A stretch of DNA of 64,000 bases. It comes from an uncultured Eubacteriales bacterium (GTDB taxonomy: Bacteria > Bacillota > Clostridia > Peptostreptococcales > Anaerovoracaceae). The notes beneath the pieces are model-generated. The model had not been told where the DNA came from. It made no database searches and saw nothing but the letters and a program-made list of their open reading frames with translations. The translations under genes were made by a program, and so were the position numbers. Where the stretch lies: the NCBI GenBank assembly GCA_902786355.1, contig CADABZ010000010.1, positions 62,001 to 126,000 of the forward strand. Reading direction: 5' to 3'. The stretch's first letter is position 1. Every line of letters starts with the position of its first letter. Below are positions 7,532 to 29,778 of this stretch, one piece after another.

Positions 7532-7564
7532 CTTAATTACTTGCTTATACAAAGCGGCTATGTA

Positions 7565-7648
7565 TATCCCTACGTTGGCATTATCCAAATCAGGTTATGG
7601 GTCCGGGACGCACCTCCCGTTCTCAGCCTGCCTACGCAAGCTCCCCTT
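7565..7648 (-). promoter_or_regulatory. TPP riboswitch (THI element)
   Basis: The minus strand carries the conserved TPP-aptamer blocks in order: AAGGGGAGC, GGCTGAGA, then ACCCATAACCTGATTTGG, ATAATGCCA and ACGTAGGGA. It is upstream of thiM and followed by a terminator, so high TPP should shut off the salvage operon. Confidence 0.96.
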
Positions 7649-7659
7649 TTGTCTATATT

Positions 7660-16684: not shown

Positions 16685-17910
16685 CTGACACTTACCCCCA
16701 TCTCTGTCAGTCTCTCAAAGAAGTCCGGAAAGCTCTTGTTTACCGCTTCTGCTCCTTCTATAACTCCGCCTGTATGAGCGCAAATGACCGAAAGCGCCAT
16801 GACTATCCGGTGATCGTTATGTCCATACAGGCACTCTGCAGGAGTTACCGCACCGCATCCGACAGTGATAGAATCCTCTTCGACATCCACGCTGACTCCG
16901 AATTTTGCGAGTTCCGCTTTTATCGAATTGCCGCGGTCGGATTCTTTGTACATCAGCCGCTTCGTCCCGGTCATTACGCATCCGTTTCTGCATGCGGCAT
17001 ATGCTGCGATCACCGGACCCAGATCCGGACAGTCAGTAATATCAAGCTGTGTCTGCCCCTCATCGAGTTTTCTGAAGTATTCAGTGCATATCTTGTCGCC
17101 CTGCGTGCTGCCTGCATCAAGGCCTGTTACTTCCGCTCCAAGAGCTATCAGAAATGCAGCTCCGGACCAGTCTCCTTCCACCTCTGCATCATGAGCTTTA
17201 TAACTCTGTCCACCGGGAATGCTGATGATGCGGCCATCCTGCCCCCATCCTGTCCATACGCCGAAATCCCGGAGAGTCTCAATTGTCATATCTATGTACG
17301 GCCTGCTCTCTGCACGGCCTTCAATCACGATACGACTGTCGCCATCCGCAAGAGGAAGAGCGAAAAGCAGTCCGCTGATGAACTGGCTGCTGATATTGCC
17401 AGGGACCTTATATGTTCCCGAAGCAAGTCTTCCGCCGACGCGCATAGCTTCCCCGGTCCGTTCTGTCGTCATGCCCTTCTCTCTGAACAGATCATCATAT
17501 ACTGTCAAAGGCCGGCTCATGAGCTTGCTGCTGCCGGTCAGAATCATTTCTCTTCCGCTGAGTGCGGCAACAGGTGCCATGAATCTCAGTGTGCTCCCGC
17601 TTTCTCTGCACCTCAGCACAGCGCTGTCTGCGAATGCAGGATCCGTTCCTCTTACTCTGATAACAGCATCCTGCGCAAGCGTGATATTCTCTGTCTCTTC
17701 CCCGCCAGCATTAATCACGGTTACTTCTGCTCCGAGGGCGCGGAGACAGTCTATAGTTGCAAGAATATCTTCTGATATGTCGACCCCTCTCACCGTGCTG
17801 ACGCCGGATGCAAGGCCCGCACATATAAGCATTCTGTGTGCTGCGCTCTTGGAATGCGGTGCTTTTACCGCTGCCGGCTGTCTTTCAAATTTTCTGATTT
17901 CCACCCTCAT
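16681..17910 (-). CDS. aroA: 3-phosphoshikimate 1-carboxyvinyltransferase (EPSP synthase)
   Basis: 409 residues from ATG 17910, chosen because GGAGGG precedes it and ATGA overlaps the upstream stop. It adds enolpyruvate from PEP to shikimate 3-phosphate. Signatures are KAPHSKSAAHR (PEP/S3P lysine and serine), RCRESGSTLRFMAP, a PGNISSQFISGLLFALPLA stretch and GHNDHRIVMALSV. It has the usual two-domain length and is the middle gene of aroEK-aroA-pheA. Confidence 0.95.
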   Translation of the reverse strand: MRVEIRKFERQPAAVKAPHSKSAAHRMLICAGLASGVSTVRGVDISEDILATIDCLRALGAEVTVINAGGEETENITLAQDAVIRVRGTDPAFADSAVLRCRESGSTLRFMAPVAALSGREMILTGSSKLMSRPLTVYDDLFREKGMTTERTGEAMRVGGRLASGTYKVPGNISSQFISGLLFALPLADGDSRIVIEGRAESRPYIDMTIETLRDFGVWTGWGQDGRIISIPGGQSYKAHDAEVEGDWSGAAFLIALGAEVTGLDAGSTQGDKICTEYFRKLDEGQTQLDITDCPDLGPVIAAYAACRNGCVMTGTKRLMYKESDRGNSIKAELAKFGVSVDVEEDSITVGCGAVTPAECLYGHNDHRIVMALSVICAHTGGVIEGAEAVNKSFPDFFERLTEMGVSVR

Positions 17911-19142
17911 TGAAGCGCCCTCCATATAACATCAGCGGTGTGATTTTCTGTTCCTTCCACCCTGACGGTGACATCCGCTGCATCAGTATATATAGAATAA
18001 CGCTCAGCATACAGCTTTCTGATCTTATCTGCGTCATTGGCAAGCGGTCTGTCGTCAGACGGGAGCAGATCCTCGAGCGGTCTGTCAAGAAATACTATCG
18101 TGCCGTTCATCCTGAGGGCATCTACATTTTCCTTTCTCAGGACTGCACCTCCGCCGGTCGATATGACTTTACCGCCGGTTGAAGCTGCTTTCAGTATCGC
18201 CTTGCTCTCAAGGTCTCTGAAATGTTTCTCTCCGTATCTGCTGAAGATCTCAGTGATAGGCATGCCTGCTTCGGCTATGACCTCATCATCCGTTTCGACC
18301 AGCTCGCGGCCCAGTCTCTCTGAAAGGATCCTGCCGAGCGTAGTCTTGCCGCTGCAAGGCATCCCGGTCAGAACTATGCTGCTCTTCTCAAAGATCAGCT
18401 CTCTGTATATCCTGTCGATCTCGTCCCTTTCGATCGATGTCCCAGTGAACAGCTCTGCTGCCAGAACAGCCTGGGCGACCAGCATGTACAGTCCGTTTAC
18501 AGCAGGAATGCCTCTGTCTGCAGCATCACGGATGAAGGCTGTCATCAGCGGATTGTATACTGCATCGAGAACGCCCTCTAAGCTGTCAAAACGGCTTATG
18601 TCGAACGGTTTGCCGTCAATCTCCGGATACATGCCGACAGGTGTCGTGTTGATCAGTATGCTGGCTCCGGAATAGTTTCTGTATGCCTCATCATACGTGA
18701 CAGCTCCGTCTCTGCCGCTTCGGCTGACCCTGATGATTTCAGCAGCACCGAGGTCCTTCACTACGCGCTCCGCCGTCCTGCTGGTTCCTCCGGAACCTGC
18801 GATAAGAACTGTTTTGCCCGCAGGATCAAGACCCATCCTGGTGATCAGGTACTTCATGCCGCCGACATCAGTGTTGTATCCGATGAGCTTGCCGTCTCTG
18901 TTGATGATCGTATTGACAGCACCTACATCGCGTGCAAGATCACTCAGCTCGTCAAGATACGGAATCACAGTCTGCTTGTACGGAATCGTAACGTTAAGTC
19001 CGTCAAAGCCGCGTGCCTGAAGGAATCCCCCAACTTCTTCAGGCTCAAGCTCTATGTGTCTGTACGGGTATTTGCCTATCTTCTCATGTATGTCTCTCGA
19101 GAAGCTGTGTCCCAGCCTCTGTCCGATAAGTCCGTATTTCAT
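17907..19142 (-). CDS. aroE-aroK: Fused shikimate dehydrogenase - shikimate kinase
   Basis: 411 residues. Residues 1-250 are biosynthetic shikimate dehydrogenase, with GHSFSRDIHE, catalytic K56 in NVTIPYK, D92 in YNTDVGG and the GSGGTSRT nucleotide loop. Residues 254-411 are shikimate kinase, with Walker A GMPCSGKTT (260-268), the shikimate-binding DDEV/FR..E stretch and STGGGAVLR. The fusion performs two consecutive steps, 3-dehydroshikimate to shikimate 3-phosphate, and is followed directly by aroA for the next step. The kinase follows the dehydrogenase with almost no linker. Confidence 0.95.
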   Translation of the reverse strand: MKYGLIGQRLGHSFSRDIHEKIGKYPYRHIELEPEEVGGFLQARGFDGLNVTIPYKQTVIPYLDELSDLARDVGAVNTIINRDGKLIGYNTDVGGMKYLITRMGLDPAGKTVLIAGSGGTSRTAERVVKDLGAAEIIRVSRSGRDGAVTYDEAYRNYSGASILINTTPVGMYPEIDGKPFDISRFDSLEGVLDAVYNPLMTAFIRDAADRGIPAVNGLYMLVAQAVLAAELFTGTSIERDEIDRIYRELIFEKSSIVLTGMPCSGKTTLGRILSERLGRELVETDDEVIAEAGMPITEIFSRYGEKHFRDLESKAILKAASTGGKVISTGGGAVLRKENVDALRMNGTIVFLDRPLEDLLPSDDRPLANDADKIRKLYAERYSIYTDAADVTVRVEGTENHTADVIWRALQ

Positions 19143-21800: not shown

Positions 21801-22733
21801 TTACTCTGTAAAGAGGGCTGTGGAGTAATATCTGTCTCCGCTGTCAGGCAGAAGTGCAACTATCACCTTGCCCTTGTTCTCCGGATTCTTAGCATACTCT
21901 ATAGCAGCGTGCAGCGCAGCGCCGGATGAGATACCGACTGAGATACCTTCCTTCTTCGCAAGATACTTAGCTGCGGCAAAAGCATCATCTCCGTTGGCTC
22001 TGTAGACCTCGTCATACACACCGGTATCAAGAGTGTCAGGAACGAATCCTGCACCGATGCCCTGGATCTTGTGAGGTCCTGACTTGCCCTCCGAGAGAAC
22101 AGGAGAGTCTGCAGGCTCGAGTGCTACGATCTTCACTTCAGGCTTCTGCTCCTTCAGAAACTCACCGACACCTGTCAGTGTACCGCCCGTTCCTACACCT
22201 GCAATGAATATATCTACTGCACCATCTGTATCATTCCAGATCTCAGGTCCTGTCGTAGCTTTGTGAATTGCAGGATTGGCAGGATTTACAAACTGTCCCG
22301 GAATGAATCCTCCCTCTATCTCCTGTGCAAGCTCTTCAGCCTTGGCGATCGCGCCTTTCATGCCCTGAGATCCGTCTGTCAGCACGATCTCTGCGCCGTA
22401 TGCCTTGAGGATGTTTCTTCTCTCAACGCTCATCGTTTCAGGCATTGTCAGTATTGCCCTGTATCCTTTTGCCGCTGCTATGGATGCAAGTCCGATTCCG
22501 GTGTTTCCGGAGGTAGGCTCGATGATAACGGAGCCTTCTTTGAGCAGACCCTTTTCTTCCGCATCTTCGATCATTGCCTTTGCGATCCTGTCCTTGACGC
22601 TGCCTGCAGGATTGAAATACTCGAGTTTTACGAGCAGTGTTGCCTCAAGTCCCAGGTCTTTCTCTATATTAGTTACCTCGACCAGTGGTGTGTTTCCTAT
22701 AAGTCCCAGTGTTCCCTTGTAGATATTAGCCAT
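21801..22733 (-). CDS. cysK: Cysteine synthase A (O-acetylserine sulfhydrylase)
   Basis: 310 residues, normal length. It makes cysteine from O-acetylserine and sulfide. The PLP lysine is K47 in [22 protein letters not shown] and GTGGTLTG bind PLP phosphate, and [11 protein letters not shown] is conserved near the end. AAGGGG precedes the ATG. Upstream is a 340-base leader with a Cys-containing peptide and mutually exclusive hairpins, so its expression is probably set by attenuation. Confidence 0.95.
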
Positions 22734-22866: not shown

Positions 22867-22899
22867 AAAAGCCCGGAAGCTTTATTATGCTCCCGGGCT
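22867..22899 (-). terminator. Attenuator terminator in the cysK leader
   Basis: On the minus strand GCCCGGGAGC (22898-22889) can pair fully, with one G-U, with GCTTCCGGGC (22880-22871), followed by TTTT. The same GCCCGGGAGC is perfectly complementary to GCTCCCGGGC at 22985-22976, so the upstream segment can form a competing antiterminator. Confidence 0.75.
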
Positions 22900-22947
22900 G
22901 AATGACTTCAGAGATCCATATCCGATCTATGTCTGGAGTCTGTCACC

Positions 22948-23043
22948 TCAAGACAGGACTCCGGTCATACATCGTGCCCGGGAGCCTGACATCAGACAAC
23001 ACCACTCCATATTCATAATATAAATCCTGTCGTTGATAGTCAT
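22948..23043 (-). CDS. Predicted cysteine leader peptide of cysK
   Basis: 31 residues from ATG 23043, or 22 from ATG 23016, which has AGGA eight bases upstream. It contains MEWCCLMSG, with two adjacent Cys codons (TGT TGT), and a third Cys further on. The Cys pair lies nine bases before the antiterminator arm (22986-22976), and the stop (22950-22948) lies in the loop of a strong hairpin at 22935-22962. That is the geometry of ribosome-mediated attenuation: stalling at Cys codons frees the antiterminator, reading to the stop covers it. Function is inferred. Confidence 0.55.
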   Translation of the reverse strand: MTINDRIYIMNMEWCCLMSGSRARCMTGVLS

Positions 23044-23082
23044 AATCGTTCTAACCTGTTCTCTGGTATAACTGATATGCCT

Positions 23083-23111
23083 ATGATAGTTCTTAAAACC
23101 TACTAAGTCAA
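23083..23111 (-). promoter_or_regulatory. Promoter of the cysK leader transcript
   Basis: On the minus strand TTGACT (23111-23106), a 17-base spacer and TATCAT (23088-23083). The expected start is near 23076, about 30 bases before the first leader-peptide ATG. Confidence 0.8.
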
Positions 23112-23176
23112 TAGGTTTTTAATTTTTCTCATGTTTTTTTCCAGGTCCTCTCATGACCGGCCCGGAGAAGCAGCCT

Positions 23177-29306: not shown

Positions 29307-29673
29307 ATGGCAAAGACTATGTATCAGGCAACAGGCAGAAGAAAGTCATCCGTAGCCAGAGTAAGACTTCTCCCGGGTGCTGGAAATATCATCATCAACA
29401 AGAGAGACATCGACACTTATTTTGGCGAGAAGGATATCGTCAAGAACGAAGTAAAGAGACCTCTCGAGCTGACAGGAACCATGGGCAGCTTCGACGTTAT
29501 CGCTACAGTTAACGGCGGCGGCTTCACAGGTCAGGCAGGCGCACTCAGACACGGTATCTTACAGACCAATGCTCAAGGCAGCAGGCTTCCTGACAAGAGA
29601 CCCAAGAATGAAGGAAAGAAAGAAACCTGGTCTCAAGAAGGCAAGAAGAGCAAGCCAGTTCTCCAAGAGATAA
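29307..29673 (+). pseudogene. rpsI: 30S ribosomal protein S9 gene with a frameshifting internal deletion
   Basis: From ATG 29307 (AAAGGAGG upstream) the first ~84 residues are normal S9 up to [15 protein letters not shown]. At about 29559 the frame breaks. In the shifted frame the true C-terminus follows: [20 protein letters not shown], then a basic tail ending QFSKR and TAA at 29671-29673. The conserved SRALLQ-type helix between them is missing, which implies about 29 bases lost. The original frame instead runs to 29774 with unrelated residues. S9 contacts P-site tRNA with its C-terminal tail and is normally essential, so an assembly error or a second rpsI copy is likely. Confidence 0.85.
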
Positions 29674-29715
29674 TCTCCGCGGAGCGATTGCTCATCAGAA
29701 AACGAGCCAACCACA

Positions 29716-29752
29716 AAAAGGGGTTCCCCATTTTGGGCGAACTCCTTTTTTC
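29716..29752 (+). terminator. Intrinsic terminator of the ribosomal protein operon
   Basis: AAAAAGG-GGTTC ... GAACTCCTTTTTT. The T-run lies on the plus strand; the A-run upstream would also serve the minus strand. Confidence 0.8.
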
Positions 29753-29778
29753 ATGCTCACATTTTGCACAGTGAATCG

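Follow-up and report, generated by a model that had tools for sequence, protein, structure and literature searches.

Introduction

Leader-peptide attenuation is textbook knowledge for the Proteobacteria. The trp and his attenuators of E. coli combine stall codons with an antiterminator and a terminator that are mutually exclusive, and both traits are shared by the element described here. Among the Firmicutes, a common sensor of tRNA charging is the T-box, which differs in that it binds tRNA directly and needs no ORF. As for cysteine, mycobacterial poly-Cys leaders were reportedly treated by Canestrari in 2020.

The closest described system is the uORFC-8-2 motif upstream of cysS in Rhodobacterales, proposed to act by ribosome-mediated attenuation on Cys-tRNA; it resembles the present element in its short ORF, two tandem Cys codons, stems and terminal U run (PMC8632094). 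A Cys-codon leader ORF also stands before the cysteine genes of actinobacterial cys operons, but there the runs of Cys codons lie near the stop codon, and there is no conserved terminator hairpin (PMC1262725). For M. smegmatis, another report speaks of translation attenuation (PMC13236596). Within the Firmicutes, the hisS*/hisZ genes of Bacillus are preceded by His leader peptides that are likewise described as attenuators, and the authors stress that this is unusual there; they are set apart by their His codons and their histidyl-tRNA synthetase paralogues (PMC2965389). This survey, of 2010, knew, besides ermC, no leader-peptide system outside Proteobacteria and Actinobacteria before it reported the His case in bacilli (PMC2965389). 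A search of the literature by title and abstract, with most subscription journals and supplements lying outside it, found no description of a clostridial Cys attenuator, nor is one mentioned in the accessible parts of three RNA-discovery papers.

Results

Anatomy of the leader in front of cysK

The window, by which we mean the whole analysed stretch of 64,000 nucleotides from an uncultured Eubacteriales bacterium, contains on its minus strand a 5' region between an FtsH-like ORF (24994-23177, named by reading) and cysK (22733-21801). The features of this region and of the gene are given below, each with its evidence in brackets.

23095..23119, minus strand: palindrome AAAACCTA-N9-TAGGTTTT around the -35 box, a putative operator, tentatively named Rrf2/CymR-like (sequence)
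23083..23111, minus strand: sigma-70-type promoter TTGACT-17-TATCAT (sequence, promoter scan)
22948..23043, minus strand: leader ORF MTINDRIYIMNMEWCCLMSGSRARCMTGVLS* (sequence, open frame in the family)
22996..23001, minus strand: adjacent Cys codons UGU-UGU, the proposed stall site (sequence, Cys codon count in the family)
22993..22998, minus strand: segment A, UGUCUG, overlapping the second Cys codon, the proposed 5' strand of an anti-antiterminator (6 bp, z -0.95 in the window)
22976..22985, minus strand: arm C (arm1; DNA GCTCCCGGGC, RNA GCUCCCGGGC), 5' strand of the antiterminator (sequence, pairing tests)
22964..22968, minus strand: 5' strand of helix P2, AUGAC (L009 row of the alignment, covariation in the family)
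22951..22962, minus strand: 5' strand of hairpin P3 (folding, covariation)
22935..22944, minus strand: 3' strand of hairpin P3, whose loop holds the stop codon (folding)
22930..22935, minus strand: segment B, CAGACA, the proposed partner of segment A (L009 row, swap test)
22902..22906, minus strand: 3' strand of helix P2, GUCAU (L009 row)
22889..22898, minus strand: arm D, GCCCGGGAGC, partner of C in the antiterminator or of E in the terminator (sequence, ensemble, pairing tests)
22871..22880, minus strand: arm E (DNA GCTTCCGGGC, RNA GCUUCCGGGC), 3' strand of the terminator (sequence, terminator scan)
22867..22870, minus strand: U run of the terminator, TTTT (sequence, T run in the family)
21801..22733, minus strand: cysK, the regulated gene, encoding the 310-aa cysteine synthase A (ORF list, NCBIfam, Pfam)

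A preliminary description of the locus, which had read it as a leader-peptide attenuator, was right in every coordinate, all the pieces it named being found at their places on the minus strand. Its promoter was recovered base for base: TTGACT (23111-23106) and TATCAT (23088-23083) are 17 nt apart, and the promoter scan returned the identical pair with 10 of 12 matches. In the leader ORF, TGG-TGT-TGT occupies 23004-22996 and a third TGT 22971-22969. The Trp-Cys-Cys series and the third Cys that had been pointed out are thus both present in the window; across the family, the Cys codons directly in front of arm C are conserved but the third Cys codon is not. The hairpin said to hold the stop codon exists as well, GGAGTC (22962-22957) pairing with GACTCC (22940-22935) and TGA (22950-22948) lying in the loop.

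A terminator scan reported a stem of 11 pairs with a T tail at 22899-22870. The 211-nt leader folded 5.5 sd better than dinucleotide shuffles (z -5.5), and the domain from arm C to arm D alone had a z of -5.7, with 0/200 shuffles as good in either case. P2 was absent from the window's own minimum-energy fold. The product of the downstream gene scored 442 bits against TIGR01139 of NCBIfam (cut-off 351), which makes it a cysteine synthase A, in agreement with the earlier name cysK; its Pfam domain is PALP.

As had been noted for the locus, no T-box (RF00230) matched in the window, and the three matches elsewhere in the genome were all sub-threshold. Rfam scans gave no family at or near the gathering score at the element, either in the window or at the loci of five relatives; neither a T-box nor another Rfam family fits there.

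Elsewhere in the window, a TPP riboswitch exceeded the Rfam gathering score (7550-7657, minus strand), and an ORF of 411 aa (17907-19142, minus strand) looks, by reading, like a shikimate dehydrogenase fused to a shikimate kinase. A ribosomal protein S9-like ORF (29307-29774, plus strand), presumably as expected for S9 to about residue 84, has an unlike tail after that, as if a small indel, an assembly error or real, had shifted the frame.

The element belongs to a family

A DNA similarity search with the leader matched 13/296 genomes of the bacterial family, that of the window included, or 11 without two 21-nt chance matches (L020 and L021), which were left out of the collection. Covariance model R1, built from these 11 sequences, gave matches in 36/296 family genomes (E up to 0.1) and in 14/391 genomes of the class, two of the latter being weak partial matches; the partial matches L063 and L064 are regarded as doubtful. 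An exact pattern run over named genomes yielded at least 119 stretches. Among the matches listed (80), the labels were Lachnospiraceae, Ruminococcaceae, Saccharofermentans, Mogibacterium, Christensenella, Blautia, unspecified Clostridia and Bacillota, and similar ones, and there were also two Anaerovibrio (which we take to be Negativicutes), one unlabelled bacterium and one record labelled Planctomycetota (L127). No start codon was found in L127, which is taken as a chance match; it was kept in the collection described below, with its downstream gene counted as unidentified.

A second model (R2), built from 120 copies, matched 6/398 genomes across a sample of the phylum, the window's own included and one only partially (the partial match L193 is doubtful), and 81/188 genomes in the order of one class relative. 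The window's genome holds two copies, that of cysK and L066, which precedes a gene resembling that of an O-acetylhomoserine sulfhydrylase, with an Rrf2-like gene next to it.

The collection consists of 145 non-identical copies gathered by a relaxed pattern, the 39 loci L149-L187 among them; in pattern-collected copies, spacing, arms and one Cys codon are fixed by the search. A filter on shared 8-mers, together with a required T run, reduced the 145 copies to 120. A further 52 regions were picked mainly for weak scores. Alignment A3 contained seven weak reverse-strand self-matches, and A4, made with a stricter cut-off, was used instead; it also omits L266, which lies at the same place as L061. 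The anatomy of the window recurs in relatives, and the element forms a family in Clostridia and a few Negativicutes, with 145 distinct sequences plus divergent ones.

CysK was matched at the strict cut-off in 36/40 genomes of the genus, and 30 cysK loci were examined, of which 21 (the window included) encode proteins at least 84% identical to the window's CysK. A comparison of relatives, suggested in the preliminary description, largely bore it out: 16/21 of these close orthologues carry the element (E below 1e-7) and all 16 keep the adjacent Cys codons and the three arms, with a mismatch in arm C in one and a wobble in one, but 5/21 are without it. The model search did not find the element at any of the nine less similar loci; L299 was tested with the model only. 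At L297, a close orthologue, the cysK promoter has a palindrome and is followed by a very short ORF ending in MTERC*, with no arms, which suggests an attenuator in decay.

The leader frame is kept and enriched in Cys codons

Over the stretch that reaches from 11 codons ahead of where the fixed Cys codon starts to 16 codons past this point, the leader frame was open in 144/145 copies, compared with 39 and 52 for the other two frames; a stop thus occurred in 1/145 copies in the leader frame, and in 106 and 93 in the others. An SD-like start was present in 140/145 copies by a loose criterion that has no control. It is the search pattern that sets the fixed Cys codon, with TGT, TGC and ATG allowed (141, 2 and 2 copies). 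The codon before it was Cys in 100/144 copies, Met in 18 and Trp in 10, against a background Cys share of 1.4% in long ORFs of the collected loci. These preceding Cys codons were UGU in 88 cases and UGC in 12, against a UGU share of 31% in the loci's long ORFs (200 codons or more, both strands counted, some spurious ones included). The kept frame, the SD-like starts and the enrichment of Cys and Met before arm C suggest that the leader ORF is translated.

The core of arm C, CUCCCGGGC, starts 14 nt past the first base of the second Cys codon, a spacing found in all 11 similarity-found copies, where other spacings were allowed. A ribosome stalled at this codon has a footprint that ends at about this point. 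One base more precedes arm C in the divergent copies L231, L242, L244, L246, L252 and L262, which puts the arm in another frame.

This shift bears on the idea that the element encodes an arrest peptide, in which the nascent CRMxxSRA would stall the ribosome on a small molecule (cysteine, methionine or SAM) and the Cys codons would be incidental. Copies found without the pattern do keep a peptide core, MCC(C)LM..SRA or MCC(L/R)M..SRA. However, arm C encodes SRA and segment A encodes CRM, so that a constraint on the RNA can explain both. Arm C is one base out of frame in L231 (CCRMLKLPGSK), L244 (CCRMLKFPGNN) and L262 (CCRMLDNPGNR), and in other copies SRA has become ERA, MRA or LRA, or CRM has become CCCM or CCCT, with the arms kept. 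Because some divergent copies change the frame of arm C, we reject an arrest peptide as the main reading and hold it to be very unlikely; attenuation through the Cys codons themselves is preferred.

Antiterminator helices covary

Arms C and D pair to form helix P1, inside which lie P2 and hairpin P3. The antiterminator (C:D) and the terminator (D:E) share D and are mutually exclusive. Alternative pairing of D with C or with E, followed by T's, had been proposed for the locus: the arms lie where claimed, the helices of the antiterminator covary in the family, and a T run follows the arms in 142/145 collected copies.

On the 120 aligned copies, 77.6% of cells in P2 and P3 were paired, versus 31-47% for slid positions, and two-sided cells numbered 66 versus 27 in shuffles; two of five measures, the pairs with two-sided change and the further pair types, were not above shuffles. 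P2 occurs as AUGGC/GCCAU, AUGAC/GUCAU and AUGAUGG/CCAUCAU. P1 was not judged on alignment A2 because both of its arms are fixed by the search pattern, and copies found by covariance model were used for it. In an alignment of 72 such copies, which was fitted to the structure, P1, P2 and P3 together had 81.9% of cells paired (38-46% slid), 146 two-sided cells (53 in shuffles) and a two-sided change in 17/22 pairs (13.3 in shuffles). When windows for C and D were cut from this alignment, each copy's own arms paired with -18.2 kcal/mol versus -15.1 kcal/mol for swapped ones (0/2000 permutations, 69 distinct). Variants of P1 include CGGACA/UGUCCG in the second copy of the window's genome, CGGGCUGU/ACAGCCCG in L227 and CCGAACA/UGUUCGG in L261.

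Terminator stems carried an A.C mismatch in 71/117 cases (alignment A2, columns 159 and 183), which would fit a terminator held at lower strength than the antiterminator.

A proposed anti-antiterminator

Arm C stays uncovered when a ribosome stands at the stop codon, and for this reason the switch probably needs a further pairing, between the Cys-codon segment and one that comes later. Segment A (UGUCGAAUGC) comprises the Cys-Arg-Met codons, and in many copies a complementary segment B (GCGUUCGGC) lies about 15-18 nt past arm C. We propose that A:B would enclose arm C, be incompatible with C:D in a nested fold and so supply the off state.

Over the 145 copies, A:B had a mean z of -0.99 (47% below -1, 21% below -2), and 73% of its cells were paired versus 34-44% when slid. 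Two-sided changes were in no clear excess (18 versus 14.6 in shuffles); the covariation score was reached in 19/500 shuffles and the number of two-sided cells in 84/500. In the divergent set, own segments paired no better than foreign ones, 545/2000 permutations being as good. Both the shuffles and the own-foreign comparison show little because A hardly varies. It does vary in the 17 copies of the CTG type, to which the window belongs, and there B varies with A. Swapping segments between CTG and CGA types gave -3.9 kcal/mol in favour of the matching type (0/5000 permutations), the related sequences not being independent and the 17 CTG copies including the doubtful L127. In the window, A:B amounts only to the 6 bp of UGUCUG/CAGACA; it reaches 8-11 bp in the relatives L011, L012 and L177.

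With several helices and conserved RNA segments, the element could also be thought of as a ligand-binding riboswitch that overlaps an ORF by happenstance. A:B and C:D would cross, which is a pseudoknot topology, and UGU is preferred over UGC at 88 to 12 despite its 31% share in long ORFs, a preference at the nucleotide level. But the kept frame, the SD-like starts (by their loose criterion) and the Cys and Met codons gathered before arm C argue for translation, and no Rfam family matched in the window or at the five loci scanned. A riboswitch is, in our judgement, most unlikely.

Proposed mechanism and its behaviour in ensemble calculations

Judging from sequence, it is highly probable that the cysK leader is a ribosome-mediated transcription attenuator, which senses the cysteine supply through translation of the leader peptide. 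When Cys-tRNA is scarce, the ribosome would halt with a Cys codon in its A site, and its footprint would cover segment A and leave C just free, so that A:B is blocked. P3, P2 and C:D would then form, D would be taken, and RNA polymerase would continue into cysK. With ample Cys-tRNA, the ribosome would pass C, A would pair with B around C, D would pair with E and transcription would stop. As in the preliminary description, we infer that the sensed signal is charged tRNA-Cys.

A nested-ensemble calculation, with a ribosome mask moved along the ORF, was run on 142 copies, the three without a T run being omitted. The family-average probability of the terminator was 0.13 when the fixed Cys codon occupied the A site. 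It was 0.33 and 0.74 when the ribosome stood one and two codons further along, and 0.82-0.83 from codon +3 to +12; for ribosome positions further upstream it was 0.14-0.20. The high values obtained with C masked follow by construction, and what is informative in this modelled profile is the place of the Cys codons, directly at the switching edge. For a ribosome at the stop codon, the terminator had a probability of 0.42 on average and 0.76 in the window. In ribosome-free RNA the average was 0.23 and the median 0.003, and with so low an average, termination must be supplied by A:B, by kinetics or by following ribosomes.

For the window itself, masking all upstream RNA gave terminator probabilities of 0.01 with a stalled ribosome and 0.93 for ribosome-free RNA. 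When the upstream RNA was left free to fold, the two Cys codons gave 0.89 and 1.0 and the codon ahead of them 0.44; a GACAGG further upstream that can take a P3 strand is perhaps the reason. The switch predicted for the window depends on how the RNA upstream of the ribosome is treated and is not robust. The reading of the locus as a trp/his-type attenuator is largely supported by the kept frame, the Cys codons and the covariation.

A palindrome at the promoter points to a probable second layer

Within 220 nt upstream of the Cys codon, CCTA-N8-10-TAGG (the CCTATTGAC-type palindrome) was found in 115/143 copies, versus 0.82 expected from mononucleotide shuffles; two copies too near a contig end were omitted. 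The -35 box lies inside the palindrome in 107 copies. At least five copies (L018, L044, L045, L046 and L066) have an Rrf2-like gene as a neighbour, and that of L046 scored over the cut-off for the Rrf2 superfamily, with the IscR and CymR models below theirs. A layer of Rrf2/CymR-like control is probably present besides the attenuator. CymR control had been set against attenuation in the preliminary description; with the -35 box within the palindrome, the promoter would probably be under an Rrf2-family regulator as well, which would give two layers.

If such an operator were the sole regulator, the leader would be a passive 5' UTR with a terminator. In favour of this, the palindrome is frequent, and two close cysK orthologues, L289 and L295, have a variant of it at the promoter, from which the gene follows without an attenuator. 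Covariation, a kept frame and the placement of the Cys codons are nevertheless unexpected in a passive UTR, and we consider control by the operator alone extremely unlikely. L289 and L295 indicate that the two layers, attenuator and operator, are separable.

Genes downstream of the element

A readable ORF follows the element in 140/145 copies and is lacking in five. The genes are for sulfur or amino-acid enzymes or transporters in 136/140 cases and for a peptidase in 2/140. By similarity clusters, 82 encode O-acetylhomoserine sulfhydrylase/cystathionine-type PLP enzymes, 32 MetQ- or cystine-type binding proteins, 12 CysK (the window included), eight amino-acid ABC permeases, two MetN-type ATPases and two M20 peptidases; two are unidentified, a class that includes the gene of L165. 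Class names were checked against NCBIfam on one to two representatives per class: those for cysK, O-acetylhomoserine sulfhydrylase and a PepT-like protein scored over the cut-offs, and those for MetQ, MetN, the cystathionine enzyme and the permease were strong matches below the curated cut-offs. We infer cystine as the permease substrate from a match below cut-off whose top names were EhuD, EhuC and cystine permease. The gene downstream in the window was confirmed as cysK, but the regulon is wider: metY-type, metQ-type, transport and other sulfur genes would be served by the same device.

Some divergent copies have other neighbours. L050 (1495-1635), outside the 145, precedes a methylenetetrahydrofolate-reductase-like (metF-like) gene, by reading; its leader is Met-rich and without the Cys pair, having Met where others have Cys (CMGMRMSGSR), and a switch of the sensed amino acid is possible. 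By reading also, L231, L242, L244, L246, L252 and L262 precede a LysR-type regulator-like gene, and L259 and L260 an iron-containing alcohol dehydrogenase-like gene; the leader core of the latter two contains just one Cys (MCGRM, MCERM).

Discussion

The element is apparently a widespread, undescribed variant of ribosome-mediated attenuation. It differs from the trp and his attenuators of E. coli in that its antiterminator arm lies inside the leader ORF, just past the footprint of the stalled ribosome, and that the proposed anti-antiterminator would close around this arm. A promoter palindrome, and an Rrf2-family gene adjoining several copies, are what it has in common with CymR/Rrf2 regulons; the latter rely on a protein repressor, which would be a separate layer. 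The uORFC-8-2 motif is alphaproteobacterial, associated with cysS, built of two prominent stems and dominated by UGC (PMC8632094), whereas the present element occurs in Clostridia before genes of sulfur biosynthesis and transport, is dominated by UGU and has a P1/P2/P3 antiterminator with one arm inside the ORF.

A broader proposition seems to us evenly balanced: that an undescribed family of attenuators with Cys (possibly Met) codons is a principal RNA-level control over how many Clostridia of gut and rumen, and some Negativicutes, make and take up sulfur amino acids, in place of the T-boxes or SAM riboswitches that one would expect. In such a family, the stall-codon segment would pair around the antiterminator arm in a crossing manner, the minor codon UGU would serve as the sensor, and an Rrf2-type system would provide the second layer.

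The 145 distinct sequences from Clostridia and some Negativicutes present attenuation by Cys codons as a widespread solution, and for genomes from gut and rumen the element offers an annotation of the 5' regions of metY-type, metQ-type, cysK and transporter genes. How RNA folding is set by a stalled ribosome can be tested directly on the element's covarying natural variants. If the proposed mechanism is true, these bacteria would sense cysteine by the charging of tRNA.
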